Shown here: piece by piece, positions 46,986 through 60,688 of the stretch
How positions within the stretch are numbered: position 1 is the stretch's first letter
Layout of the letters: each line of letters begins with the position of its first letter
Origin: an uncultured Prevotellaceae bacterium
GTDB taxonomy: Bacteria > Bacteroidota > Bacteroidia > Bacteroidales > UBA932
Length of the DNA: 64,000 bases
Direction of reading: 5' to 3'
Assembly (NCBI GenBank): GCA_947166905.1
Contig: CAMVFZ010000009.1
Span: forward strand, 1 to 64,000
Made by a program: the position numbers and the translations under genes
The notes under the pieces: model-generated
Seen by the model: the letters and a program-made list of their open reading frames with translations, nothing else
Database searches by the model: none
What the model was told of the DNA's origin: nothing

Positions 46986-47238
46986 ACAAAACATTATATG
47001 AAGCAATTCGCAAACAACGGAAAATTAAAGTTACTGATCATTGTGGGGACGCGGCCGGAGATTATAAGATTGGCGGCGGTCATCGGCAAGTGCCGCACGT
47101 ACTTTGACTGCCTGCTGGCGCATACGGGCCAGAACTACGACTACAACCTCAACGGGGTGTTCTTCAAGGACCTCAAGCTGGCCGATCCGGACATCTACCT
47201 GGAGGCCGTGGGCAGTGACCTGGGCGAGACCATGGGAC

Positions 47239-47312
47239 AACCGACGCCAAGCCGAGAGGCATCAAGCTCGCTTGAATGCCCGAGGCGCGAAGGAGGAAAA
47301 CCGAAGGTTAAC
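47239..47312 (+). repeat. AACCGACGC hairpin element, insertion 1
   Basis: The element starts AACCGACGC and ends AAC. Its inner stem is GGCAT (47258-47262) with ATGCC (47276-47280), extended by CAAGC/GCTTG. The net gain over copy 2 is 72 bases. It shares the AAGGAGGAAA tail with two other copies. Confidence 0.85.
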
Positions 47313-47516
47313 ATCATTGCCAAGAGCTACCAGCTGATGGTGGCCACGGGGCCCGATGCCGTGCTGGTGCTGGGCGACACCAACAGCTGCCTGAGCGTCA
47401 TCGGGGCCAAGCGCCTGCACATCCCCATCTTCCATATGGAGGCCGGCAACCGGTGCAAGGACGAGTGCCTGCCCGAGGAGACCAACCGCCGCATTGTGGA
47501 CATCATCTCCGACGTG

Positions 47517-47594
47517 AACCGACGCACGAGCGAGCGCAATGCCTTGATTTTCAATAGCATTGCCGAGCGAGAAGGAGGAAACGCGAAGCGTAAC
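47517..47594 (+). repeat. AACCGACGC hairpin element, insertion 2
   Basis: It is flanked by AAC on both sides and adds 75 bases relative to copy 2. The stem is GCAATGC (47536-47542) with GCATTGC (47557-47563), then GAGCGAGAAGGAGGAAA. The stem differs from element 1 yet remains paired. Confidence 0.85.
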
Positions 47595-47633
47595 ATGGCC
47601 TACAGCGCGGCCGCTTAGGCCGATAGGACCGCG

Positions 47634-47818: not shown

Positions 47819-49054
47819 ATGAGACATCTTATCATACGCAATATTGGGCCAGTCAAGTTTGCTGAGTTTGAGTTGAAAAGGTTCAACTTCATCATTGGCC
47901 CTCAGAGCAGTGGTAAAAGTACCATTGCCAAGATATTGAGTACCTGCAGTTGGGTGGAGAAGGAGGTGGCTACCACTATGGATGAGCATGCAGTTGCTGA
48001 TGCGGCTGCATTCCGTGCCCTGATGGTTGATTTTCATAAGATGACGGATTACTTTGTCGAGGACTCTGAAATTCAGTTTGAAACGGATGTTATCAAGATT
48101 TCACTAAAGGGTGAATCTTTCAACGTCCAACTCAAGAACCAGGAACTTTATCGCAGAGAGAAGATTTGCTATATTCCTTCGGAACGTAATTCTGTAACCC
48201 TTCCGGAGCTTCAAGGCTATGAGTTCGGTCCAACAAACCTTCGCAGCTTCTTGTTTGACTGGTTTAATGCCAGAGAGTATTACGGGAAAGATAATAAAAC
48301 AGATATTCTGGATTTGGGTGTCCGTTATTTCTACGATCCTAATGAGAAGAAATTTAAGGACCGTATTGAACACGTAAACGGAAAAACATATCAGATTCCT
48401 CTTGGTAGTGCATCGAGTGGTTTGCAGTCGGTTATTCCTCTGCAAATAATGATTCAGTATTATTCAAGCCAATACTTTAAGACATTTGCTGATAAGACTT
48501 CATATGACTCAGATGTCAAAACCAGGACGATTCAGGCGCGAGTTATCGACAAGTACGTTTTGAGTGTGGCTTATCCTGGATTCAACCCCCTTGAACGTAA
48601 TGATTTGATTAAAAAGCAGAATAATCTTATCCATGAGGGGAATCCTGAAGCGAGAGAGCTGCTAAAGAAGTATAGAGAGGAGTTGGAACGTTTGACAGTT
48701 CCTGTACGTACAGCTTATATCGTAGAAGAACCTGAGCAGAACCTCTATCCCTCTACCCAGCGTGATCTGCTGAACTTCATTGTGGCTTCTTGTAATTGGG
48801 AGAGTGCGCATGCCCTCACCATTACTACTCATAGTCCGTATATTATCAACCAACTCAACTTGTTGCTCAAGGCTGCAGATAGGAACGAGCAGGTAAATGG
48901 AGCGGCAATTAATTTCGATGAAATAAACGTATTCTCCGTGCAAGAAGGTGAGATTCGGGACTTGAAGGTGCAGAATGATGGCATACACCTGATTGATACG
49001 GCAAAATTGTCGGAAGATATTACGGATATCTATGAGCAGTACGAGGCACTATGA
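47819..49054 (+). CDS. ABC-type AAA ATPase (OLD/RecF-like), candidate defence gene
   Basis: The 411-aa protein starts with MRHLIIRNIGPVKFAEFELKR and Walker A GPQSSGKST (about 29-37). It has an ABC-like signature SSGLQSVIPLQ (about 200), Walker B AYIVEEPEQNLYP (about 302-314) and the switch THSPYIINQLN. This is the OLD/RecF-like ATPase set found in many anti-phage systems, but it has no TOPRIM nuclease domain; any effector must be the next gene, whose ATG overlaps its stop by four bases. The reading frame is intact and codon use differs from the GC-rich epimerase fragments on both sides. Confidence 0.85.
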   Translation: MRHLIIRNIGPVKFAEFELKRFNFIIGPQSSGKSTIAKILSTCSWVEKEVATTMDEHAVADAAAFRALMVDFHKMTDYFVEDSEIQFETDVIKISLKGESFNVQLKNQELYRREKICYIPSERNSVTLPELQGYEFGPTNLRSFLFDWFNAREYYGKDNKTDILDLGVRYFYDPNEKKFKDRIEHVNGKTYQIPLGSASSGLQSVIPLQIMIQYYSSQYFKTFADKTSYDSDVKTRTIQARVIDKYVLSVAYPGFNPLERNDLIKKQNNLIHEGNPEARELLKKYREELERLTVPVRTAYIVEEPEQNLYPSTQRDLLNFIVASCNWESAHALTITTHSPYIINQLNLLLKAADRNEQVNGAAINFDEINVFSVQEGEIRDLKVQNDGIHLIDTAKLSEDITDIYEQYEAL

Positions 49055-49716
49055 TTAAGCAACTGATAGATAATCATTTTGCTAGCCATTACAAGCTGGG
49101 GCGTGTGGTAACGATTGATGAGAATCACACGACTGATAGCCGTTTTGACTTGAATGAGAACAGCGGTACGGCTATCGTTGCGTTTGGCAGTGGCTCTGCT
49201 TCATTTGAGAATGATGCTCAGCGTGATATCACAGTGCTGGACTATGAGGGGTATATTGACAAGTATTCTGGAACGCAATTCCATGCGGGGCGTATGAAAT
49301 GCGACTGCATTCTGGAGTCGGAAACAGGATCCACTGTCATCTTGGATGAAATAACAAGTTCTGTAAGTGGTATAGAGAATCTTCAAAAGCCCATCACGGG
49401 TAAAAAGGAGTATCCGGGTGGCAAGTTTGAGAAGGTTGAACAGCAATTGCTGATGTCATTGCAAACTTTGCATGATGTACCAGAGATTGCGCATCATCTT
49501 GATTCTCAGTTAAAGCGTGTTTGCCTGTGTTCGTATAAGCTTTACACTTCGGATACGATGGCTCTCATCGGTGACCCTGTCACAGCCTTCACTCGGGGAA
49601 TGACAGAAGCAGAACGCCAAAGTGGAGAAAATGGCGTAAAGATATCTTGCCCGCAGATTGAGGCACTGGGATTTGAATACCGCCGAATATCACACGCATT
49701 TGCGTATAGCATTTAA
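49051..49716 (+). CDS. Unknown 221-aa partner of the AAA ATPase
   Basis: I do not recognise the family. The protein has no signal peptide or membrane helix. A central stretch, KCDCILESETGSTVILDEITSS (split: Asp near 91, Glu near 106), followed by a helix KFEKVEQQLLMSLQTL, has the spacing D-x14-E-x-T of degenerate PD-(D/E)XK nuclease cores, with Thr in place of Lys. That is a weak, by-eye likeness. Translational coupling to the ATPase shows that the two work together. Confidence 0.75.
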   Translation: MIKQLIDNHFASHYKLGRVVTIDENHTTDSRFDLNENSGTAIVAFGSGSASFENDAQRDITVLDYEGYIDKYSGTQFHAGRMKCDCILESETGSTVILDEITSSVSGIENLQKPITGKKEYPGGKFEKVEQQLLMSLQTLHDVPEIAHHLDSQLKRVCLCSYKLYTSDTMALIGDPVTAFTRGMTEAERQSGENGVKISCPQIEALGFEYRRISHAFAYSI

Positions 49717-49851: not shown

Positions 49852-50436
49852 ATGGAAATGTCACATTTCGCAAACAACGGCAAACTCAAGCTCCTCATCA
49901 TTGTGGGGACGCGGCCGGAGATTATAAGGTTGGCGGCGGTCATCGGCAAGTGCCGCACGTACTTTGACTGCCTGCTGGCGCATACGGGCCAGAACTACGA
50001 CTACAACCTCAATGGGGTGTTCTTCAAGGACCTCAAGCTGGCCGATCCGGACGTGTACCTGGAGGCCGTGGGCAGTGACCTGGGCGAGACCATGGGCAAT
50101 ATCATTGCCAAGAGCTACCAGCTGATGGTGGCCACGGGGCCCGATGCCGTGCTGGTGCTGGGCGACACCAACAGCTGCCTGAGCGTCATCGGGGCCAAGC
50201 GCCTGCACATCCCCATCTTCCATATGGAGGCCGGCAACCGGTGCAAGGACGAGTGCCTGCCCGAGGAGACCAACCGCCGCATTGTGGACATCATCTCCGA
50301 CGTCAATATGGCCTACAGCGAGCACGCCCGCCGCTACCTGGCCGACACCGGCCTCCCCAAGGAGCGCACCTACGTCACCGGCAGCCCCATGGCCGAACCG
50401 ACGCACGAGCGAGTGCAATACCAAGCCTGCGCTTGA
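49852..50436 (+). pseudogene. FnlC/WbjD-type UDP-GlcNAc 2-epimerase fragment, copy 2
   Basis: The frame carries the epimerase N-terminus without the two insertions of copy 1, and reads further, to GLPKERTYVTGSPMAE (about residue 183). There an AACCGACGC element enters and adds a short false tail. From about base 49896 on, the DNA is nearly identical to copy 1, but the first 30 bases differ at many third positions, suggesting gene conversion with a boundary there. The C-terminal half of the enzyme is not found in the window. Confidence 0.88.
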
Positions 50437-50888: not shown

Positions 50889-52457
50889 ATGATTAGAATC
50901 TTGTCGATACTCAGTATTATTCTTTCGATGCTTTTGGCACCGAAGAAAGTATTTTTGTCTGACGATAGCATACCTATAGCTGAGCAGATAAAAGAAGAAA
51001 ATACTAAGTATTACGTCTTAAATGATTTTGATCTTCAAGGGCAGACAGTTGAAATACCAAAGGGTTCTACACTCATATTCAAAAAGGGTGGAAAATTAAG
51101 AAACGGGATACTGTGCGGAAATGAGACTTTAATCCGTTCACCCAAACTAGATAATATACATTTCGCTGGGTCATTCGTTAACAATAGAATTAGCATTTCG
51201 GAAACAGCCTTTGGTAATGAAATAGATTTTTGGGGCATACTCCAGTCTTTTCAAAATGCAACTGTTAAACTTGACTGTGATATAACTCCATCATCATTTA
51301 ATAGTCAAAATATTGAACTATCAAGATTGTGCATAGAGGGCAAGGGACACACAATCAATGTATCTAATTGCTTTCCAATCATCTATTGCCCGGTTGTGGA
51401 ATTAAGCAATATTAGCTTTAATTGTTCATATGCTGACACTCGAGTTTTATATATTATTGGCTCAGGTGAACGTTTTTTTGTTGACAATTGCTCTTTTACA
51501 AATATACCAGAAGTAGATTATCTATTATGCTCTCGTCTTTTTTCAAATGTAGAGATTAGTAATTGTAGCTTTGAGGGAACACTTCTTGACAATCCTCGTG
51601 CAAAACAGGCTACTTCTTGCATTATGCTTTACGAATGCAATGGTCATATCTCTGTTTGTAATAATTCAATCAACAATTGTTTTGGAATTGGAATTTGCGG
51701 ACTAGGCTTCAAGAGAGATAAGAATTCAAAAATTATTATAGAAAGGAATTGTATAAATACTGTTTCAAATGGAGGAATAGCTTTTTCAGGTGGTGAAGTT
51801 GAGAATGTTATTATACGAAAGAATATTATTACTAATACGCATATCAGAGAAAAGCAGTTAGAAGGTGAAGGAACATGGGGAGAAAACAGTGCTATTAATT
51901 TCCATGGTTTTCATAATGTCATTGTTGAAAAAAACACTATTGTAGATTGTGACAATTCATCTTGTTTTGATTTTGACGGCTCGCAATCAGGAGTAAACGA
52001 TGTCGTCAAAGGTGATGGTTTGGTTATTCAAAAAAATAAGTGTAATAATACAGGTGGAATCGCTCTGTTTGTTGTTAATGATGTCCTCTTTGAGAATAAT
52101 ATAATAAATGCGAAGGATCTAGATTATTTACTGGCAATATCTGGTTCTAGAGATATAATTATTAGAAAGAACGAGATTTTCTTTAATTCATTAAAAATGA
52201 AGGAATATCCTTTTTTTCTTCAGAATATTGGTCAAATTCATTCTGGTAATGTGTTAATTGACAATAATCGAGTCGCCTCAAATGGATGCTTTTTTGCCTG
52301 TATTGACAAATCATTTTCAGGGGTTTATACAATAACTGAAAGCAACCAAATTGTTTCGTCTAGCAATGACGATGGTTTTTTATTAGTAGAGGATCATACA
52401 AATAGTAATTCAAAAGAGTGGAAAAAAGCAAAATTGAAAATAAAGAGTAATGATTGA
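50889..52457 (+). CDS. Secreted right-handed beta-helix protein
   Basis: The 522-aa product has an N-terminal export signal (RILSILSIILSMLLAPKKV). Its body is a series of about 22-residue turns rich in Asn and Ile/Val (IIIERNCINTVSNGGIAFSGG, VIIRKNIITNTHI, VIVEKNTIVDCDNSS, LVIQKNKCNNTGGIALF, each a separate coil), which is the parallel beta-helix pattern of polysaccharide lyases and surface adhesins. No catalytic motif can be assigned. In a capsule locus it might trim or modify the polymer. Codon use is strongly AT-rich. Confidence 0.75.
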   Translation: MIRILSILSIILSMLLAPKKVFLSDDSIPIAEQIKEENTKYYVLNDFDLQGQTVEIPKGSTLIFKKGGKLRNGILCGNETLIRSPKLDNIHFAGSFVNNRISISETAFGNEIDFWGILQSFQNATVKLDCDITPSSFNSQNIELSRLCIEGKGHTINVSNCFPIIYCPVVELSNISFNCSYADTRVLYIIGSGERFFVDNCSFTNIPEVDYLLCSRLFSNVEISNCSFEGTLLDNPRAKQATSCIMLYECNGHISVCNNSINNCFGIGICGLGFKRDKNSKIIIERNCINTVSNGGIAFSGGEVENVIIRKNIITNTHIREKQLEGEGTWGENSAINFHGFHNVIVEKNTIVDCDNSSCFDFDGSQSGVNDVVKGDGLVIQKNKCNNTGGIALFVVNDVLFENNIINAKDLDYLLAISGSRDIIIRKNEIFFNSLKMKEYPFFLQNIGQIHSGNVLIDNNRVASNGCFFACIDKSFSGVYTITESNQIVSSSNDDGFLLVEDHTNSNSKEWKKAKLKIKSND

Positions 52458-52513
52458 ATTACTCATGACATGCTCTCACGTTATTTCAAGTATAATTTGT
52501 TATAATAAAGATA

Positions 52514-53245
52514 ATGAAAGCAGTTATTTTAGCAGCAGGATTAGGTACGCGTTTGCGTCCTATCACAAACGAGGTACCTAAATGTATGGTGCCAGTAAAT
52601 GGTATAAGGATTATTGACAAGCAGATAGATAACCTGCTGTCAAATGGTGTTGATGAAATCTATGTGGTGGATGGTTATAAGGCTGAGGTTCTAGCAGAGC
52701 ACTTGAAAGCAAACTATCCCCAGGTACATATTGTATCTAACCCTCGTTATGCAGAGACGAATAACATGTATTCGCTTTACCTGACATCAAAGTATGTAAA
52801 GGGAGAAGAGTTTTTGCTGATGAATGCAGACGTTTATTTTGATTCCTGCATTATCAAGGGTATTATGGATGGTGAAGGCAGCCGCATTGCATGTGATATT
52901 TCCCAATATCTTGAGGAATCCATGAAAATAACCGTCTTTGGGGATATCATTAAGCATATCAGTAAGAAAATCAGTGAAGAAGAGTACTATGCTGTTTCTA
53001 TAGATGTATATCGTATATCCGCCGAGTCTTCCAAGGTCTTATTCAAAGAAGTCGAAGATACTATTATTGGTCGTAAAGACGAAAACTCTTGGACTGAAGT
53101 AGCTCTTGATAATATCTTCCATTTGACTACATTCAAACCCTATATCATCAATTATGCGAAAGGCCGTTGGTTTGAGATTGATAACCATGACGACCTTCAC
53201 AAGGCAGAAGAAATCTTCAAAGGCGACAAATTATGCAAGATTTAA
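52514..53245 (+). CDS. Nucleotidyltransferase, probable glycerol-2-phosphate cytidylyltransferase (Gtp2-like)
   Basis: The 243-aa product has the sugar-nucleotidyltransferase start AVILAAGLGTRLRPITNEVPKCMVPV and the NPRYAETNNMYSLYL and LLMNADVYFD segments typical of LicC-like CTP transferases. With the HAD and Fe-type dehydrogenase that follow, it reproduces the pneumococcal Gtp set that makes CDP-2-glycerol. Choline-phosphate or another small alcohol phosphate is the main alternative. It overlaps the HAD gene by 13 bases. Confidence 0.8.
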   Translation: MKAVILAAGLGTRLRPITNEVPKCMVPVNGIRIIDKQIDNLLSNGVDEIYVVDGYKAEVLAEHLKANYPQVHIVSNPRYAETNNMYSLYLTSKYVKGEEFLLMNADVYFDSCIIKGIMDGEGSRIACDISQYLEESMKITVFGDIIKHISKKISEEEYYAVSIDVYRISAESSKVLFKEVEDTIIGRKDENSWTEVALDNIFHLTTFKPYIINYAKGRWFEIDNHDDLHKAEEIFKGDKLCKI

Positions 53246-54033
53246 AGTCCATCCAGCTCTATATGCTGGACATGGATGGAACCATTTACAACGAGGATAC
53301 GCTGATTCCAGGTGCATTGGAGTTCTTTAAGTTACTCCAAGCACAGGGGAAACAGTATGTCTTTATGACGAATAATTCGTCAAAAGGCAAAATCTCGTAT
53401 GTGGAGAAGTTAAGGAGGCTTGGAATAGACGCTACTGAGAAGCATATAGCTTCGTCCGTCAATGCAACAGTGATGTATTTGAAGGAACGCAAGCCTGGAG
53501 CAAAGCTGTTTCTTGTTGGAACAGAGTCTTTGAAGAGAGAGTTGCTCGACGAAGGCTTTGAGGTGGTTCCTTTGGGTTATCGTGGTGATGATATTGACTA
53601 TGTGCTCCTTGGCTTTGATACAGAGTTGAATTACGAGAAGGTGAGAGGAGCCTGCTTTTATGTAAGTAGGGGCTATCCCTATATTGCCACCAATTGTGAT
53701 TTGAAATGCCCTGTATTGGATAACAAATTCATTCCCGACTGTGGTGCAATTGCCAAAATGATAGAATTGGCAACTGACAGAATGCCACAGTTCCTTGGTA
53801 AGCCTGAGCGCACCATGGTTGATGCGGTATCAGCTGAATGGAATGTGCCTATTGACAAGATTGCATGTGTTGGTGACCGTCTCTATACGGATATAGCTGT
53901 AGGTATTAATGCCGGAGCGACATCTATCTGTGTTCTAACCGGTGAAGCAACACCCGAAGAGATTGATGGTTCTGACCAGAAACCTGATTATTGTTTTGAT
54001 TCTATCAAAGAATTATACGAAGCATTGCTCTAG
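53233..54033 (+). CDS. HAD-IIA (NagD-like) phosphatase or phosphotransferase, Gtp3-like
   Basis: The 266-aa protein has all HAD motifs: YMLDMDGTIYNED (nucleophile Asp), FMTNNSSKGK, Lys in LGKPER, and CVGDRLYTDIAVG. The C2B cap puts it with NagD and phosphoglycolate/glycerol-phosphate phosphatases. In the pneumococcal system the related Gtp3 makes glycerol-2-phosphate. It is three bases from the reductase gene. Confidence 0.85.
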   Translation: MQDLKSIQLYMLDMDGTIYNEDTLIPGALEFFKLLQAQGKQYVFMTNNSSKGKISYVEKLRRLGIDATEKHIASSVNATVMYLKERKPGAKLFLVGTESLKRELLDEGFEVVPLGYRGDDIDYVLLGFDTELNYEKVRGACFYVSRGYPYIATNCDLKCPVLDNKFIPDCGAIAKMIELATDRMPQFLGKPERTMVDAVSAEWNVPIDKIACVGDRLYTDIAVGINAGATSICVLTGEATPEEIDGSDQKPDYCFDSIKELYEALL

Positions 54034-54036
54034 ACT

Positions 54037-55020
54037 ATGTATTACAACTTAATCAAGACACCTGCCTTTATGAAGACAGGAAAGGGAATCTTAAAGAGTA
54101 TTGACCAGATACTTGAAGATGCCCACCTTATATATAGAAAGAAAATTCTTGTTACTCAAGATAATCTCTATAAGGAGTACGAGCAGGATTTGGCAAATGT
54201 AAGGTTTGATAAGGTCGTGATTGTGAAAGGTGGAAATGTGGATGAGGTTCCGACCGTAAAAGAACAGTGCAAGGAAACTGATGCTCTCATTGTTGCATTT
54301 GGTGGTGGCAGTGTGCTTGATTTGGTTAAGTATTCAGCTAGTCAGTTAGATATGCCATATATCAATGTCCCTTCCGCATTGTCTAATGATGCAGTATATT
54401 CTTGTGTGGCGCGTCTGACAAAGAACGGTAAGAAGTTTAGCTTTGGTGTTCAGCCACCTATAGGAATAGTTGTTGATATCAATATCATCAATAAGTCACC
54501 AGAAATCCTCCTGTATGCTGGAGTGGCAGATATTGTTTCTAATCTTTCTGCGATCCAAGACTGGTTGTTGGCGCATAATGAAATTGGTGAGCCTATTAAT
54601 GAACTTTCTTATATGTTGGCTAAAGAAGCTGCATTGCCTCTTCTACGATATAAGAAAGAAGACTTGCATTCCGATGGTCTTATCTTGGATTTGGTAAATG
54701 GAATTGTAACATCCGGTTTGGCTATGATAGTCTCTGGAAATACTCGTGGTACCAGTGGTGCAGAGCACTTGATTAGTCATGCCATTGACGAGTTCTTCCC
54801 CGAGAAATCCACAATACATGGAATTCAGGTTGGCTGGGCTCAAGGAATTATTGCTAAACGGTATAGGAATGATCCATATAAGATAAATGAGTTTTATCAG
54901 CAAATAGGGTTAGCCGAGATATATGAAAAAATGGTGCCTTGGAAAGAGGATGAGTTCGACTCTTTGATTCCTTATGCAAAACAAATAAGAAATAGATTTA
55001 CTTGCTTTAATTTATTGTAA
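54037..55020 (+). CDS. Iron-type polyol dehydrogenase (Gtp1 / glycerol-1-phosphate dehydrogenase family)
   Basis: The 327-aa product has AFGGGSVLDLVKYSASQLDMPYINVPSALSNDAV (as separate blocks), GVADIVSNLSAIQDW with the first Asp ligand, GAEHLISHAID and HGIQVGWAQG with the two metal-binding His, as in glycerol-1-phosphate and glycerol dehydrogenases. By context it would reduce dihydroxyacetone or its phosphate, to give the glycerol unit of CDP-glycerol. The stereochemistry (sn-1, sn-3 or 2-phosphate) cannot be read from sequence. Confidence 0.82.
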   Translation: MYYNLIKTPAFMKTGKGILKSIDQILEDAHLIYRKKILVTQDNLYKEYEQDLANVRFDKVVIVKGGNVDEVPTVKEQCKETDALIVAFGGGSVLDLVKYSASQLDMPYINVPSALSNDAVYSCVARLTKNGKKFSFGVQPPIGIVVDINIINKSPEILLYAGVADIVSNLSAIQDWLLAHNEIGEPINELSYMLAKEAALPLLRYKKEDLHSDGLILDLVNGIVTSGLAMIVSGNTRGTSGAEHLISHAIDEFFPEKSTIHGIQVGWAQGIIAKRYRNDPYKINEFYQQIGLAEIYEKMVPWKEDEFDSLIPYAKQIRNRFTCFNLL

Positions 55021-55038
55021 TTTGGATTAACGTTTTTT

Positions 55039-56217
55039 ATGATTCCATTATTAAAGTCTATTCGTCACATTGGGATTTGTGTAGTTAGATGGATATTATC
55101 TATTCTTATCCCAATAAAGAATGATAAAATCCTATTTCAAAGTATACCTGACTATTCTGATAACTGTAGGGCATTTTCCGATTTTTTAATTGAGAATACA
55201 ACCTATCATATTTATTGGTCGGTGAAAGAGGCATGTAATTATCAGAGTAATGATCGGATAACTTTTATTGAAACTGATGGGGGGCGTTATTTGATTGATA
55301 AAATTCGCTTTATTTACCATACAGTCTCTGCTAAATTTTTATTTAGTACTCATGAAGCGTTCCTTTTTGCTAATACGCACAGGCAGAAATATATTTGCCT
55401 ATGGCACGGAACGCCTTTAAAAAAAATAGCGGTTTTACAAAATCCCAATAATAAGAATTATTTAAGTAATGCTTCTTTCATTTTGTGCTCATCCAAATAC
55501 TATGTTCCAATTATGGCACGTTGCTTTGGGAGGAGAGAAGATATCATATTACCATTAGGCTATCCAAGGAATGACTGGCTTTTTGAAGAGTCATCTATTC
55601 TCTCGGACCTTGGTATTAGTGTTGGAAAAGATGAAAAGCTGGTAACATATCTACCGACATTTCGCCGGACAAGTGCAGAATCTGAAGGCGATTCAAAAAA
55701 GGATGTCTTTTCATCCGGTTTATTCGACTTCTATGACAAGTCCAATTTGATGAAGCTTAATGATTATTTAAAAAAAATTGGTGTTGTCTTAGTCGTAAAG
55801 CCCCACCCGGCTGACGTAAATCAATTAGAATATAACGTGTTAAGTAATGTGGCAATTTTACCACAGTCATATCTTTCAGAGAAAGATCTACAGTTATATC
55901 ACTTATTACACTATTCTGATGCCTTATTGACGGATTTCTCTAGCGTTTATGCCGATTATTTGAATTTGGATAGGCCCATTGGCTTTTTATTGTCTGATAT
56001 TTCCGATTACTCAAGTAATAGGGGCTTTATTTTCGATAATCCATTAGATTATCTACCAGGTGTTAAATTATTTAATGAAGCGGACTTAATAGCATTTTTG
56101 GAAGACGTATCTAATAATGTTGACGTTACTAAGCATGAGAGAGATAATCAATCATATATTTATAACGATTACCGAGCCGGTAATAGCAAAAGGTTGTTTG
56201 ATTATTTAGGTCTTTGA
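55039..56217 (+). CDS. CDP-glycerol glycerophosphotransferase (TagB/TagF-like)
   Basis: The 392-aa product has the motifs of teichoic-acid polymerases: FSTHEAFLFANTHRQKYICLWHGTPLKKIAVL (in parts), PLGYPRNDWLF, VVKPHPADVNQ with the catalytic His, and LLTDFSSVYADYLNLDRP. These enzymes move glycerol-phosphate from CDP-glycerol to a glycan or to a growing chain. An N-terminal hydrophobic stretch suggests membrane association. With the three genes before it, it forms a complete glycerol-phosphate decoration cassette. Confidence 0.88.
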   Translation: MIPLLKSIRHIGICVVRWILSILIPIKNDKILFQSIPDYSDNCRAFSDFLIENTTYHIYWSVKEACNYQSNDRITFIETDGGRYLIDKIRFIYHTVSAKFLFSTHEAFLFANTHRQKYICLWHGTPLKKIAVLQNPNNKNYLSNASFILCSSKYYVPIMARCFGRREDIILPLGYPRNDWLFEESSILSDLGISVGKDEKLVTYLPTFRRTSAESEGDSKKDVFSSGLFDFYDKSNLMKLNDYLKKIGVVLVVKPHPADVNQLEYNVLSNVAILPQSYLSEKDLQLYHLLHYSDALLTDFSSVYADYLNLDRPIGFLLSDISDYSSNRGFIFDNPLDYLPGVKLFNEADLIAFLEDVSNNVDVTKHERDNQSYIYNDYRAGNSKRLFDYLGL

Positions 56218-56241: not shown

Positions 56242-57459
56242 ATGAATCTGTTCCGGAGATTGTTAGATTATTTCCATTTGGGAAAGGTTGGTTTTCCTGA
56301 ATTGGTAATAGCAATGTATCCTATTCTTATCGGATACATATATGGTTTTTTTTATGTTGGTTTACTTGCTATAGCTTTAGTGGATGTGTATGTGTTATCA
56401 AAACAACACGTAAAATTCATTAATAATCGTGCTTTTTATTTGATATCTGGATATGTTATTCTACATGAGTTTGTATTGTGGTTTATACTTGGCTTTGAAC
56501 CTATGTATATGCTTTATGCAACTATCCAACTTTCTTTTATCATAGTATCTATTGCAATTATTAGCTCAAGTATCAATTATGAGAAATTAATCAATTCTTT
56601 TTATTGGGTAGCTGTATTTTGTATTGGTGGCTTGATATATCAGTATATGATAATTGCCGCCGGTGGTACAGTATCTCCTATAAGATTGCCGTTTTTTTCT
56701 CCATTAGAAGCCGGCTCTAGATTTGATGAGATAGTTATTAGGCCAACATCATTCTTTTTTGAGCCAAGTCAATTTGCCACATATTTGATTATTCCTCTTT
56801 TTATTGCATTAAAAGAGAAAAAGCTGTTGCTCTCGACTTTTATTACTATAATGATGTTTTTATCTACATCAACAAATGGTATTTTCTTTTCTTTGGGGCT
56901 AGTTTTTGTCTATGCCATTAGCAGCAAGGGCGTTAAGCTTTGGTATAAATTATTAATGATTGTAGTTGGTGTTGGACTTGTTTATTTCCTTGTTAATTCA
57001 GAATTCTTTGAACAGGGTATTACTAAAATTGAAAACACTGATATTACTGAGAATTCAAGAACGGCTAACGGTATTAAATACGTCAAAAGTCTTTCTCCTA
57101 GCACACTGATACTGGGTATTAATGATGCTAATGCTTCTGATTATTATGCACACCATACAAGCCTTTTTTCTGGAGCAAGTTTGGAAGTACGAGATGGGGA
57201 TGTATATATTACGACATTTTGGCTTGTATTAATAAAGTATGGGGTAATAGGATTGCTTCTTTATTTAAACATGTATTATTATTTCTTTAAAAAGGACAAG
57301 TCTCTTTTCCCATATATGGCTATTATCGTAGTCTCTTTATTTACACAGTCTTTGTTTTTTGATATTGTTCAGATCGTCTTCCTAGTTTCATATACAAGGT
57401 ATAATACAAATATTGGTAGAATTAATAATCGTATGAATAATAATAAACAATTTGCATAA
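56242..57459 (+). CDS. Wzy-like polysaccharide polymerase
   Basis: The 405-aa protein has about ten membrane helices and a large periplasmic loop between helices near residues 260-330 (NSRTANGIKYVKSLSPSTLILGINDANASD), as in O-antigen and capsule polymerases. Primary sequence is poorly conserved in this group, so the call rests on topology and locus. It follows the glycerophosphotransferase after 24 bases and overlaps the next gene by one base. Confidence 0.75.
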   Translation: MNLFRRLLDYFHLGKVGFPELVIAMYPILIGYIYGFFYVGLLAIALVDVYVLSKQHVKFINNRAFYLISGYVILHEFVLWFILGFEPMYMLYATIQLSFIIVSIAIISSSINYEKLINSFYWVAVFCIGGLIYQYMIIAAGGTVSPIRLPFFSPLEAGSRFDEIVIRPTSFFFEPSQFATYLIIPLFIALKEKKLLLSTFITIMMFLSTSTNGIFFSLGLVFVYAISSKGVKLWYKLLMIVVGVGLVYFLVNSEFFEQGITKIENTDITENSRTANGIKYVKSLSPSTLILGINDANASDYYAHHTSLFSGASLEVRDGDVYITTFWLVLIKYGVIGLLLYLNMYYYFFKKDKSLFPYMAIIVVSLFTQSLFFDIVQIVFLVSYTRYNTNIGRINNRMNNNKQFA

Positions 57460-58529
57460 TGAGTGTTTTTAAAGACAAAGTCCTGTTGATTACAGGTGGA
57501 ACGGGTTCATTTGGTAATGCCGTTCTTCGTAGGTTCCTTACGAGTGATATTAAGGAGATTCGTATTTTCTCGCGTGATGAAAAAAAGCAGGACGAGATGC
57601 GTCATCGTCTTCAGGCACAGCATCCAAAGGAGGCATCAAAGGTGCACTTCATCATTGGTAACGTGCGTGATTTGGATGCCATTGATGCTGCAATGCATGG
57701 TGTAGACTATGTTTTCAGTGCTGCTGCTCTGAAACAGGTGCCTGCTTGTGAATTCTATCCTATGCAAGCTGTACGCACTAATATTTTTGGTTCCGAGAAT
57801 GTGCTGGAAGCAGCTGTACGTAACAAAGTGTCTCGTGTTGTGGTGCTTTCTACCGATAAGGCCGCTTATCCTATCAATACAATGGGTATGACCAAAGCTT
57901 TGATGGAAAAGCTTGCTATCAACAAGAGCCGTGACCCTCGCACGCGAGAGAGCGGAACGGTGATATGCGCAACCCGCTATGGTAACGTGATGTGTAGCCG
58001 TGGCTCTATCATTCCTTTGTTCATTGAGCAGATTAAGACGGGTAAGCCTATGACAGTAACAGTCCCTGAGATGACTCGTTTTATGATGTCTCTTGATGAG
58101 GCTGTCGATCTTGTAATCTTTGCATTTACCCATGCCAACCCGGGCGACCTGTTTGTTCAGAAGGCACCTGCTGCTACTATTGAGGTGTTGGCTCAAGCCG
58201 TGAAGGAGATTTTCAAGGCAGATAATCCTATTCAGGTTATTGGAGCCCGCCACGGTGAAAAGATGTATGAGACACTTTGCACCAGTGAGGAAATGGCAAA
58301 GGCAGAGGATATGGGTGATTTCTACCGTGTTCCCGCTGATATGCGTGACCTCAACTATGACCAGTACATTGACAACTTTGGCCATCGTGTTGATTTTGAC
58401 CAGTATAATTCAGATAATACCCGCCGCCTTGATCTTGAAGGTATGAAGGAGATGCTGCTTAAATTGGACTATGTACAGGAACAGCTGAAGGAGTGGGAGG
58501 CTGAAAAGGCAAAAAAGGCCAACAAGTAA
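57459..58529 (+). CDS. UDP-GlcNAc 4,6-dehydratase/5-epimerase, FnlA/CapE-like
   Basis: The 356-aa SDR has the nucleotide motif TGGTGSFGNAVLRRF, FSAAALKQVPACEFYP, and the STDKAAYPINTMGMTKALMEKL block, in which Met replaces the usual Tyr of the catalytic triad. The C-terminal SDNTRRLDLEGMKEMLLKL is diagnostic of FnlA/CapE/WbjB, the first enzyme of UDP-L-FucNAc synthesis. FnlB is absent and only FnlC remnants (46998, 49852) exist in the window, so the product may instead go to the aminotransferase next door. Confidence 0.88.
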   Translation: MSVFKDKVLLITGGTGSFGNAVLRRFLTSDIKEIRIFSRDEKKQDEMRHRLQAQHPKEASKVHFIIGNVRDLDAIDAAMHGVDYVFSAAALKQVPACEFYPMQAVRTNIFGSENVLEAAVRNKVSRVVVLSTDKAAYPINTMGMTKALMEKLAINKSRDPRTRESGTVICATRYGNVMCSRGSIIPLFIEQIKTGKPMTVTVPEMTRFMMSLDEAVDLVIFAFTHANPGDLFVQKAPAATIEVLAQAVKEIFKADNPIQVIGARHGEKMYETLCTSEEMAKAEDMGDFYRVPADMRDLNYDQYIDNFGHRVDFDQYNSDNTRRLDLEGMKEMLLKLDYVQEQLKEWEAEKAKKANK

Positions 58530-58541
58530 AAGCATAAGCGT

Positions 58542-59630
58542 ATGATACCTCTCGTTAAACCATATTTTCCTCCACGTGAGGAATTGATGCCCGCCCTTGA
58601 GGAGATTCTCTATAGTGGCTATGTGGCAACAGGTCAGCCCGTCTTCGATTTTGAAGACGAGTTCAAGAAGTATATTGGCAATGATAATATCATTTCTGTT
58701 CATTCTGGAACAGATGCCTTACACCTTGCATATATCCTTGCTGGTGTGAAGCCCGGAGATGAGATTATCAGTACTCCTATGACTGCAGAGCCTACCAACA
58801 CATCCATTGCTATGGTTGGTGCTAAGGTAGTTTGGGGTGATGTGGACCCCAAGAACGGTCTTCTTGATCCTAAAAGTGTTCGCAAGCTGATTACCGAAAA
58901 GACTAAAGCCATAGTGATGGTTCACTATGCCGGTATGGTTTGCGATATGGATGAGTTCACCAAGATCTCTAAAGATTTTAACATTCCTATCATTGAAGAT
59001 GCCGCTCACGCTATGGGAAGCAAATACAATGGTAAGATGACTGGCTGCAACTCTGCCTATACCATCTACTCTCTTCAGGCCATCAAACACATGACAACCG
59101 TTGATGGTGGTTTCTTGGCCATGCGTGATGGAAGCCAGATGGATAGAGCAAGACGCTTACGTTGGTTTGGTCTTTCCAAGGACAAAAGCCGCTTGGATAA
59201 TGATATCACTGAAGTGGGCTACAAGTACGCCATGAACAATGTGAATGCTACCATTGGTCTTTGCCAAATGAAGCATCTCAATGATGTGATAGGTACTTAC
59301 ATCTCCAATGGTAAGTATTACGATGAGGCTCTGAAGGGTGTCCCTGGCGTTGAGTTGGTGAAGTATAACAATAACACGGAGCCTTCCTATTGGCTCTACA
59401 CTATGCGCGTAGAACGTCGAGATGATTTCTGCAAAATGATGGAAGCTAATGGCATCATGGCTTCCCAGCTTCACCACCGTAGTGATACTCATAGTATCTT
59501 CAAGGAGTCGAAGAGAGAGCTTCCAAATATGGAAGACTGGTATTCTCACTTTGTGCATATCCCTTGTGGATGGTGGGTTGATGAAGAAACAAGAACTAAG
59601 ATTGTAGAAACTATAAAGAAAGGCTGGTAA
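58542..59630 (+). CDS. DegT/DnrJ/EryC1/StrS sugar aminotransferase
   Basis: The 362-aa PLP enzyme has the family landmarks: SGYVATGQPVFDFEDEF, HSGTDALHLAYILAG, IIEDAAHAMGSKYNGK (Asp that contacts the PLP ring nitrogen) and YSLQAIKHMTTVDGG with Lys182 for the Schiff base. It transfers an amino group to a keto-sugar nucleotide, probably the product of the dehydratase upstream, giving a 4-amino-4,6-dideoxy sugar. Confidence 0.9.
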   Translation: MIPLVKPYFPPREELMPALEEILYSGYVATGQPVFDFEDEFKKYIGNDNIISVHSGTDALHLAYILAGVKPGDEIISTPMTAEPTNTSIAMVGAKVVWGDVDPKNGLLDPKSVRKLITEKTKAIVMVHYAGMVCDMDEFTKISKDFNIPIIEDAAHAMGSKYNGKMTGCNSAYTIYSLQAIKHMTTVDGGFLAMRDGSQMDRARRLRWFGLSKDKSRLDNDITEVGYKYAMNNVNATIGLCQMKHLNDVIGTYISNGKYYDEALKGVPGVELVKYNNNTEPSYWLYTMRVERRDDFCKMMEANGIMASQLHHRSDTHSIFKESKRELPNMEDWYSHFVHIPCGWWVDEETRTKIVETIKKGW

Positions 59631-59635
59631 AAAAA

Positions 59636-60688
59636 ATGTCAACCCGTAATCTCACAGCCGTCGAGGGTTTGAGATTCCTCCTCTTCCTTGGAATACTTGT
59701 ATTTCATTGTGTAAGTAATTGGTTGCCAATTGGATGGGGGGGGGTAGAAGCATTCCTCGTCATTACATCATACTTTCTTACAACCAAGTTTTTAAAGAAT
59801 GAATCTTGCAATAATATCCGTATTGGAGGTGCTTTTGTCCATAGAATCAAGCGACTGTATCCAGTCTATATAACGGTTATAGCTTTTGCGGTTTTATTAT
59901 CATTAACTACTAGAGTTGGTAATGCCTCAGATTCAGTATGGTATATTTTTGTCTCACAGAATTTTAGATGCATATTTAGTGGTGATTGGGCTAGTTTAGA
60001 TTTCTTACTTGGTCATTTCTGGTATATTGCGCTTGATGTTTGGCTGTTTTTAGTATGGATAGTTGTACTTAAGTATGTCCCAAGAAAATTATATCGTTAT
60101 GCTTTTATCACCTCTCTAATAATTGGGTTGTGTTGGCGAACTTGTTTTCTTTTATTAATACCAGACAATATATCCATATCGTATGTCATTCCATTAGGTA
60201 TGTTGGATAGCTTCGCACTAGGAGGGCTGGTTGCATTGAATACGAAAGAAAGAGTAGGGAAAGACATTCTTATGTGGTCAGAGATAATTGTCGGAGCGGT
60301 GGGTGTTGGGTTGCTTACCATTTACAATGCTTATCTTCATAACTGTAGTTTTGGCGATTCTTATCAATTATACCAAAGTGCAGGCGGTTATATGCACAAT
60401 CCCTTAACGGGTAACACATATTTTTTTGTTGCATTGTTCTTTGCCGGGGTTTTGCGTTATTGCGTTGATACCGAGAAGAAGCATCCATTGTTGTCATGGA
60501 CTCCACTTGTGGTGTTAGGTGGATTAACTTATGAGTTGTATTGTTTCCATTTTCCAATTCGAACATTAGCTCAACATTTTATATCGAACGAACTGATAAT
60601 GCTATTGGTTACGTTATTGCTAACTGTTTTGGTAGCTATTCTATGGAAAAAGTGGGCTGCTCCAATAGTCGAACGGATCATTCATTAG
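59636..60688 (+). CDS. Acyltransferase 3 family O-acetyltransferase
   Basis: The 350-aa protein has about ten membrane helices and the start TAVEGLRFLLFLGILVFHCVSNW with the family's R/K and His, followed by RIKRLYPVY, as in OafA-type acetyltransferases. It probably O-acetylates a capsule sugar. A run of nine G residues (59739-59747) lies in its 5' region, a possible slippage site. Confidence 0.88.
   Translation: MSTRNLTAVEGLRFLLFLGILVFHCVSNWLPIGWGGVEAFLVITSYFLTTKFLKNESCNNIRIGGAFVHRIKRLYPVYITVIAFAVLLSLTTRVGNASDSVWYIFVSQNFRCIFSGDWASLDFLLGHFWYIALDVWLFLVWIVVLKYVPRKLYRYAFITSLIIGLCWRTCFLLLIPDNISISYVIPLGMLDSFALGGLVALNTKERVGKDILMWSEIIVGAVGVGLLTIYNAYLHNCSFGDSYQLYQSAGGYMHNPLTGNTYFFVALFFAGVLRYCVDTEKKHPLLSWTPLVVLGGLTYELYCFHFPIRTLAQHFISNELIMLLVTLLLTVLVAILWKKWAAPIVERIIH

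Follow-up and report, generated by a model that had tools for sequence, protein, structure and literature searches.

A conserved three-gene module predicted to activate glycerol phosphate in a Bacteroidales surface polysaccharide locus

Which alcohol phosphate does a row of four adjacent genes in an uncultured Prevotellaceae bacterium prepare for a surface polysaccharide, and do the four genes form one unit? The row occupies positions 52514-56217 of a 64,000-nucleotide window, the whole stretch of DNA that was analysed (contig CAMVFZ010000009.1 of assembly GCA_947166905.1, a 2.1 Mb draft genome of 29 contigs). It encodes, in order, a putative cytidylyltransferase, a HAD-type enzyme, an iron-type dehydrogenase and a TagB/TagF-type transferase, and a first-pass annotation had read it as a complete cassette for glycerol-phosphate decoration. 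We propose, with a probability of about one half (0.52), that the first three genes (52514-55020; hereafter the trio) are a mobile module making glycerol phosphate activated with cytidine diphosphate (CDP), most likely CDP-2-glycerol, and that the PF04464 transferase attaches glycerol phosphate to a lipid-linked Wzx/Wzy repeat unit. The activation of glycerol phosphate is well supported; glycerol-2-phosphate is a likelier product than sn-glycerol-1-phosphate, though unproven.

All four open reading frames (ORFs) are intact, and the ORF list agrees with the Pfam and NCBIfam searches in placing them at the positions and in the families first assigned to them (Table 1). The family matches far exceed curated cut-offs or chance; Pfam E-values were 7e-16 for the cytidylyltransferase (PF00483), 1e-28 and 5e-18 for the HAD enzyme (PF13344 and PF13242), 5e-22 for the dehydrogenase (PF13685) and 1.5e-57 for the transferase (PF04464). 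The genes had also been described as contiguous and overlapping. They are indeed adjacent, but only the first pair overlaps (by 13 bp), the later junctions being gaps of 3 bp and then 18 bp.

Scanning 84,980 species genomes with an alignment of the cytidylyltransferase returned 13 loci, 8 of which carry the cytidylyltransferase, HAD and dehydrogenase genes side by side: L013, L014, L015 and L016 (Prevotellaceae/Bacteroidales), L017 (Bacteroides), L018 (Phocaeicola sartorii), L021, which is the same as L012 (SKW298), and L020 (Lachnospiraceae). With the window this makes nine trio loci, eight in Bacteroidales and one in Lachnospiraceae. L019, which ends inside the gene, and L022-L025, which are distant or partial, were left out of the count; where a trio-type cytidylyltransferase gene was uninterrupted and its flanks were present, adjacency held in 9/9 loci. 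Nucleotide alignments (blastn) of the window with L013-L019 began at 52493-52513, no more than 21 bases from the first gene, and ended at 54842-55021, no later than the first base after the dehydrogenase gene; the alignment with L019 stopped with its contig. Among the cassette genes the trio alone was aligned, and no alignment reached the transferase gene. The remaining matches, at 39-45 kb, lay outside the cassette.

The trio proteins are 81-91% identical to those of L013 and L016 even though about half of the third codon positions are identical, which argues for purifying selection on the proteins. Synonymous divergence (dS) by the NG86 method was mostly undefined through saturation, and codon-position identities were used instead; these were 0.32-0.51 at third positions versus 0.80-0.94 at second positions. 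With the thresholds applied, 1/399 genomes of the family, the window's own, had a trio-type cytidylyltransferase; the other 17 matches in the family sample were 30-35% identical and mostly fused PntC-like proteins. A related dehydrogenase was also scarce (1/395 genomes of the phylum at E <= 1e-30, again the window's own; 5/295 genomes of the order at E <= 1e-20). GC content, ~0.51 over the upstream 48 kb, drops to 0.37-0.39 in the window's final 12 kb. This rarity, together with the low GC, suggests that the trio was acquired horizontally. No Streptococcus locus was among those returned by the genome scan, viral contigs held no relative of the window's cytidylyltransferase, and tblastn against plasmids and phages, like blastn against phages and E. 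coli, found no close copy of gtp-type genes.

The transferase, by comparison, is an exchangeable partner. It is the product of the only PF04464 gene in its genome, and its H123 and H256, which align with H444 and H584 of TagF, are invariant in nine transferases. The PF04464 proteins of the other loci are only 21-32% identical to it and are encoded on either side of the trio. PF04464 and LicD proteins both transfer phosphate-alcohols from CDP donors, and one or the other lies close by in all nine trio loci: PF04464 in eight, LicD in L015, where 14.7 kb contained no PF04464 gene and a LicD-family gene (L015:9580-10362) adjoins the trio in its place. Only 17/151 genomes of the genus carry PF04464 above the cut-off anywhere, so its linkage to the trio is not due to chance. 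The complete cassette of four genes thus gives way to a conserved unit of three with a swappable fourth.

We then considered what the cytidylyltransferase activates. Its best match in the PDB by phmmer was the phosphocholine enzyme LicC (1jyk, E 2.5e-20), and the top 23 structures in Foldseek were all CTP-specific enzymes of the PntC, IPCT and LicC kinds. The LicC match, and the LicD gene in one trio locus, would suit a phosphocholine or phosphoethanolamine enzyme with incidental neighbours. In the tree, however, the window's enzyme joined all other trio cytidylyltransferases (support 89/86; 80/76 with L022), apart from LicC, from LicC-like enzymes encoded next to LicD in Prevotella and in the window's own family (L026, L030), and from the fused PntC-like enzymes. 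The grouping with choline or ethanolamine enzymes that the first-pass annotation had named as fatal to its reading therefore did not appear, and a choline or phosphonate role was ruled out on the tree with moderate support. Given also the nine-fold linkage to HAD and dehydrogenase genes, we regard an aminoalcohol substrate as very improbable. The LicC-like enzymes have a row of their own: in two Bacteroidales loci (L026:5952-8550 and L030:452-3111) a HisC-like aminotransferase, a LicC-like cytidylyltransferase and a LicD-like gene are consecutive, perhaps an aminoalcohol-phosphate decoration set. In L031 the same first two genes precede a weak PF04464-like gene.

The usual donor for TagF-like enzymes is CDP-3-glycerol made by a TagD-type glycerol-phosphate cytidylyltransferase (GCT), and the TagF-like partner could point to an ordinary teichoic-type sn-glycerol-3-phosphate donor made here by a non-TagD enzyme. 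A scan of the cassette genes found no Rossmann-type, TagD-like CTP_transf_like enzyme, the only cytidylyltransferase being of the GT-A, NTP_transferase type. GpsA, present in the window's genome, supplies sn-glycerol-3-phosphate, which would need no private dehydrogenase and would leave both the dehydrogenase and the HAD enzyme jobless; we give this alternative scarcely any credence.

The dehydrogenase has an Asp/His/His metal set (D165/H248/H261) that is invariant in the alignments, and in both sequence and fold it is nearer to sn-glycerol-1-phosphate dehydrogenase (G1PDH) than to glycerol dehydrogenase. The NCBIfam model for G1PDH (NF002022) scored 195 bits and that for glycerol dehydrogenase 50 bits, both below cut-off (413 bits for the NF002022 equivalog). 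A predicted structure (predicted local distance difference test score, pLDDT, 89) was matched by Foldseek to 3ce9, a structural-genomics entry named as a glycerol dehydrogenase, then to M. jannaschii G1PDH with dihydroxyacetone phosphate, and then to AraM. This nearness to triose(-phosphate) enzymes speaks against activation of another polyol phosphate, such as a tetritol or pentitol phosphate. Several CDP-alditols are served by PF04464 and LicD enzymes, and one might also imagine CDP-dihydroxyacetone being formed first and then reduced, like CDP-6-fructose in Campylobacter HS:5; such activation before reduction has been proven for CDP-6-glucitol (PMC10918830). The HS:5 pathway, however, has a short-chain reductase and no HAD enzyme, and we consider either variant improbable.

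More weight attaches to sn-glycerol-1-phosphate. In the tree, the window's dehydrogenase and those of six Bacteroidales trios formed a clade with the enzyme of L011 (100/99), while the L012 and L020 enzymes fell elsewhere (91/91). An exclusive clade of HAD-linked dehydrogenases without L011 was rejected (approximately unbiased (AU) test, p 6e-5); with L011 included it was not (p 0.15). L011 is a Bacteroidales polysaccharide locus in which a TagD-type cytidylyltransferase (best model TIGR01518, below its cut-off), the G1PDH-like dehydrogenase and a PF04464 transferase follow in that order (L011:7297-10131); its 18 kb contain no HAD-IIA or trio-type cytidylyltransferase, and 24 other genomes of its family held no second locus of this kind. 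Since housekeeping GpsA, as seen in the window's genome, makes sn-glycerol-3-phosphate, a private dehydrogenase in L011 suggests the other enantiomer, and hence a predicted CDP-1-glycerol pathway in this single locus. On a Streptomyces fungicidicus replicon (L028:6246-8804), a phosphocholine-type cytidylyltransferase, a G1PDH-like dehydrogenase and a CDP-alcohol phosphatidyltransferase are likewise consecutive without HAD. G1PDH-like proteins of ~450 amino acids also occur in two other Bacteroidales genomes (L005, L006), at a tree position far from the polysaccharide type.

By analogy, the trio might itself make CDP-1-glycerol: dihydroxyacetone phosphate would be reduced to sn-glycerol-1-phosphate and activated directly, the HAD enzyme would serve as a side phosphatase or for pool control, and the polysaccharide would bear sn-glycerol-1-phosphate. 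The G1PDH branch, the sister enzyme in L011, the rejected HAD-only clade and the HAD-free pairing in L028 all favour this. On the other side, HAD is strictly kept in 9/9 trios, where it would be wasteful to have a phosphatase consume the intermediate, and CDP-1-glycerol has been judged likely absent from bacteria (PMC8262930). We consider this route unlikely for the window, yet a serious rival. That bacteria make and use CDP-1-glycerol is likewise a doubtful but tangible prospect: a Bacteroidales G1PDH-type enzyme, a cytidylyltransferase (of TagD type in L011 and perhaps of trio type in the window) and a TagF-like transferase would put the archaeal enantiomer on polysaccharides, and the trio's HAD enzyme may be a mutase redirecting the pool to the 2-isomer.

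The catalytic motifs of the HAD enzyme (DxDGT and GDRLYTD) are conserved across the nine trio loci, its TIGR01460 score is above cut-off, its matches include glycerol-phosphate phosphatases of NagD type (7po7, 4i9f), and no second HAD homologue was found elsewhere in the window's genome. Such an enzyme should be needed only where a phosphate has to move or go on another carbon, and related dehydrogenase sets exist that lack one (L011, L028). A phospho-aspartate HAD could pass phosphate to glycerol at its central hydroxyl group. In pneumococcal CDP-2-glycerol synthesis, according to what Wang et al. reportedly found in 2010, Gtp1 is a reductase, Gtp3 a glycerol-2-phosphotransferase and Gtp2 a cytidylyltransferase; with such a transfer, a first enzyme of G1PDH kind and the role given to Gtp3 would be compatible.

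In the pathway that we favour, we infer every substrate and product, the 2-position in particular, from observed families, catalytic residues, conservation, selection and linkage. The dehydrogenase would reduce dihydroxyacetone phosphate (or dihydroxyacetone) to sn-glycerol-1-phosphate (or glycerol), and the HAD enzyme, via a phospho-aspartate, would form glycerol-2-phosphate by shifting the phosphate onto the middle carbon. The cytidylyltransferase would couple this product to cytidine triphosphate (CTP), and the TagF-like enzyme would move glycerol phosphate onto a sugar.

Several observations weigh against this scheme. Support for the trio cytidylyltransferase clade is moderate. The closest annotated relatives of the HAD enzyme are phosphatases, so the phosphate shift is a conjectured step. 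The dehydrogenase is of the G1PDH branch, and the closest relative that it has outside trios stands beside a TagD-type cytidylyltransferase, which fits an sn-glycerol-1-phosphate product. The first-pass annotation had held that a dehydrogenase grouping with sn-glycerol-1-phosphate enzymes would undo the 2-phosphate; the grouping is real, yet it does not by itself refute glycerol-2-phosphate and leaves sn-glycerol-1-phosphate a minority share of the probability. Its prediction of glycerol-phosphate side groups on a Bacteroidales polysaccharide is supported to the extent that a Gram-negative polysaccharide locus holds a probable set of enzymes for activating glycerol phosphate. We prefer glycerol-2-phosphate because the conserved HAD enzyme is otherwise unexplained.

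Table 1. Genes of the cassette and its neighbours in the window.
Feature	Position	Strand	Family or basis
CTP:glycerol-phosphate cytidylyltransferase, putative (Gtp2-like, NTP_transferase fold)	52514-53245	+	PF00483/PF12804
HAD-IIA (NagD-type) phosphatase/phosphotransferase, Gtp3-like	53233-54033	+	PF13344, PF13242, TIGR01460
Iron-type (metal-dependent) polyol(-phosphate) dehydrogenase, G1PDH branch, Gtp1-like	54037-55020	+	PF13685
TagB/TagF-type CDP-alcohol phosphotransferase, single PF04464 domain, 392 aa, exchangeable partner	55039-56217	+	PF04464
Right-handed beta-helix protein, directly upstream of trio	50889-52457	+	PF13229
Candidate Wzy-type polymerase, multi-helix membrane protein	56242-57459	+	sequence reading; no Pfam match
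NAD-dependent sugar-nucleotide dehydratase/epimerase (PseB/CapD-like)	57459-58529	+	ORF, sequence reading only
DegT-type aminotransferase	58542-59630	+	ORF, sequence reading only
Acyltransferase 3	59636-60688	+	PF01757

Past the window's end (L049), the contig encodes a Wzx flippase (PF13440), glycosyltransferases, sugar-nucleotide enzymes and a Bac_transf initiating transferase, several of them assigned by sequence reading only. These genes place the cassette in a Wzx/Wzy-type surface polysaccharide locus, putatively that of a capsule. Upstream, the 5' half of a UDP-GlcNAc 2-epimerase gene is present in two truncated copies, 95-99% similar (46998-47618 and 49852-50436). Between them lies a unit of two genes, which encode an AAA_21 ATPase (47819-49054; PADLOC PDC-M29A, 1e-57) and a 221-aa partner with no assigned family (49051-49716). 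This unit is possibly a defence pair lodged by a broken, duplicated epimerase gene.

If our proposal holds, Bacteroidales polysaccharides would carry a negatively charged, teichoic-acid-like group whose genes can travel between loci as a module of three. The proposal also makes testable the bacterial use of CDP-activated sn-glycerol-1-phosphate. The chemistry can be checked because a cultured type strain, Phocaeicola sartorii, carries the trio. A 2025 review on the surface polysaccharides of gut bacteria, searched by term, yielded glycerol phosphate only for Lactobacillaceae and R. gnavus and not for Bacteroides polysaccharides.

Gram-negative polysaccharides bearing glycerol phosphate are already known. 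Examples are the glycerol-1-phosphate O-antigens reported for E. coli O28ab, O37 and O100 and for Hafnia alvei PCM1220; the PCM1220 cluster, unlike the cassette, has tagD, and no trio of HAD, cytidylyltransferase and dehydrogenase is described in it. Cps3D and Cps7D of A. pleuropneumoniae, which work with a TagD-type GCT, are likewise PF04464-type transferases using CDP-glycerol. They differ in being multidomain polymerases (Cps3D has 1149 aa) where the window has a single 392-aa domain; the cassette has no TagD-type GCT, and its donor is probably a different glycerol-phosphate isomer. The dehydrogenase resembles the G1PDH family (AraM, archaeal EgsA) in sequence, fold and metal ligands, and departs from it in its low NF002022 score, a shorter C terminus and a surface-polysaccharide rather than lipid context. 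The closest parallel is the CDP-2-glycerol pathway of S. pneumoniae 23F/15A, in which a Wzx/Wzy locus likewise groups a reductase, a cytidylyltransferase and a phosphotransferase with a glycerol phosphotransferase; as regards probable function the likeness is good. The 23F set is listed as wchX-gtp1 (dehydrogenase)-gtp2 (nucleotidyltransferase)-gtp3 (phosphotransferase) (PMC3493582). The match first claimed to Gtp2, Gtp3 and Gtp1 therefore stands for enzyme classes, gene set and neighbours, but not for gene order: the window has cytidylyltransferase-HAD-dehydrogenase, whereas two related loci have the 23F order of dehydrogenase-cytidylyltransferase-HAD. The host here is a gut-type, Gram-negative Bacteroidales, and the window's dehydrogenase differs in lineage from those of the Lachnospiraceae and SKW298 loci. 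We conclude that the trio probably represents a known pathway in a believable new host rather than a new kind of system, a rare module built of ordinary parts.

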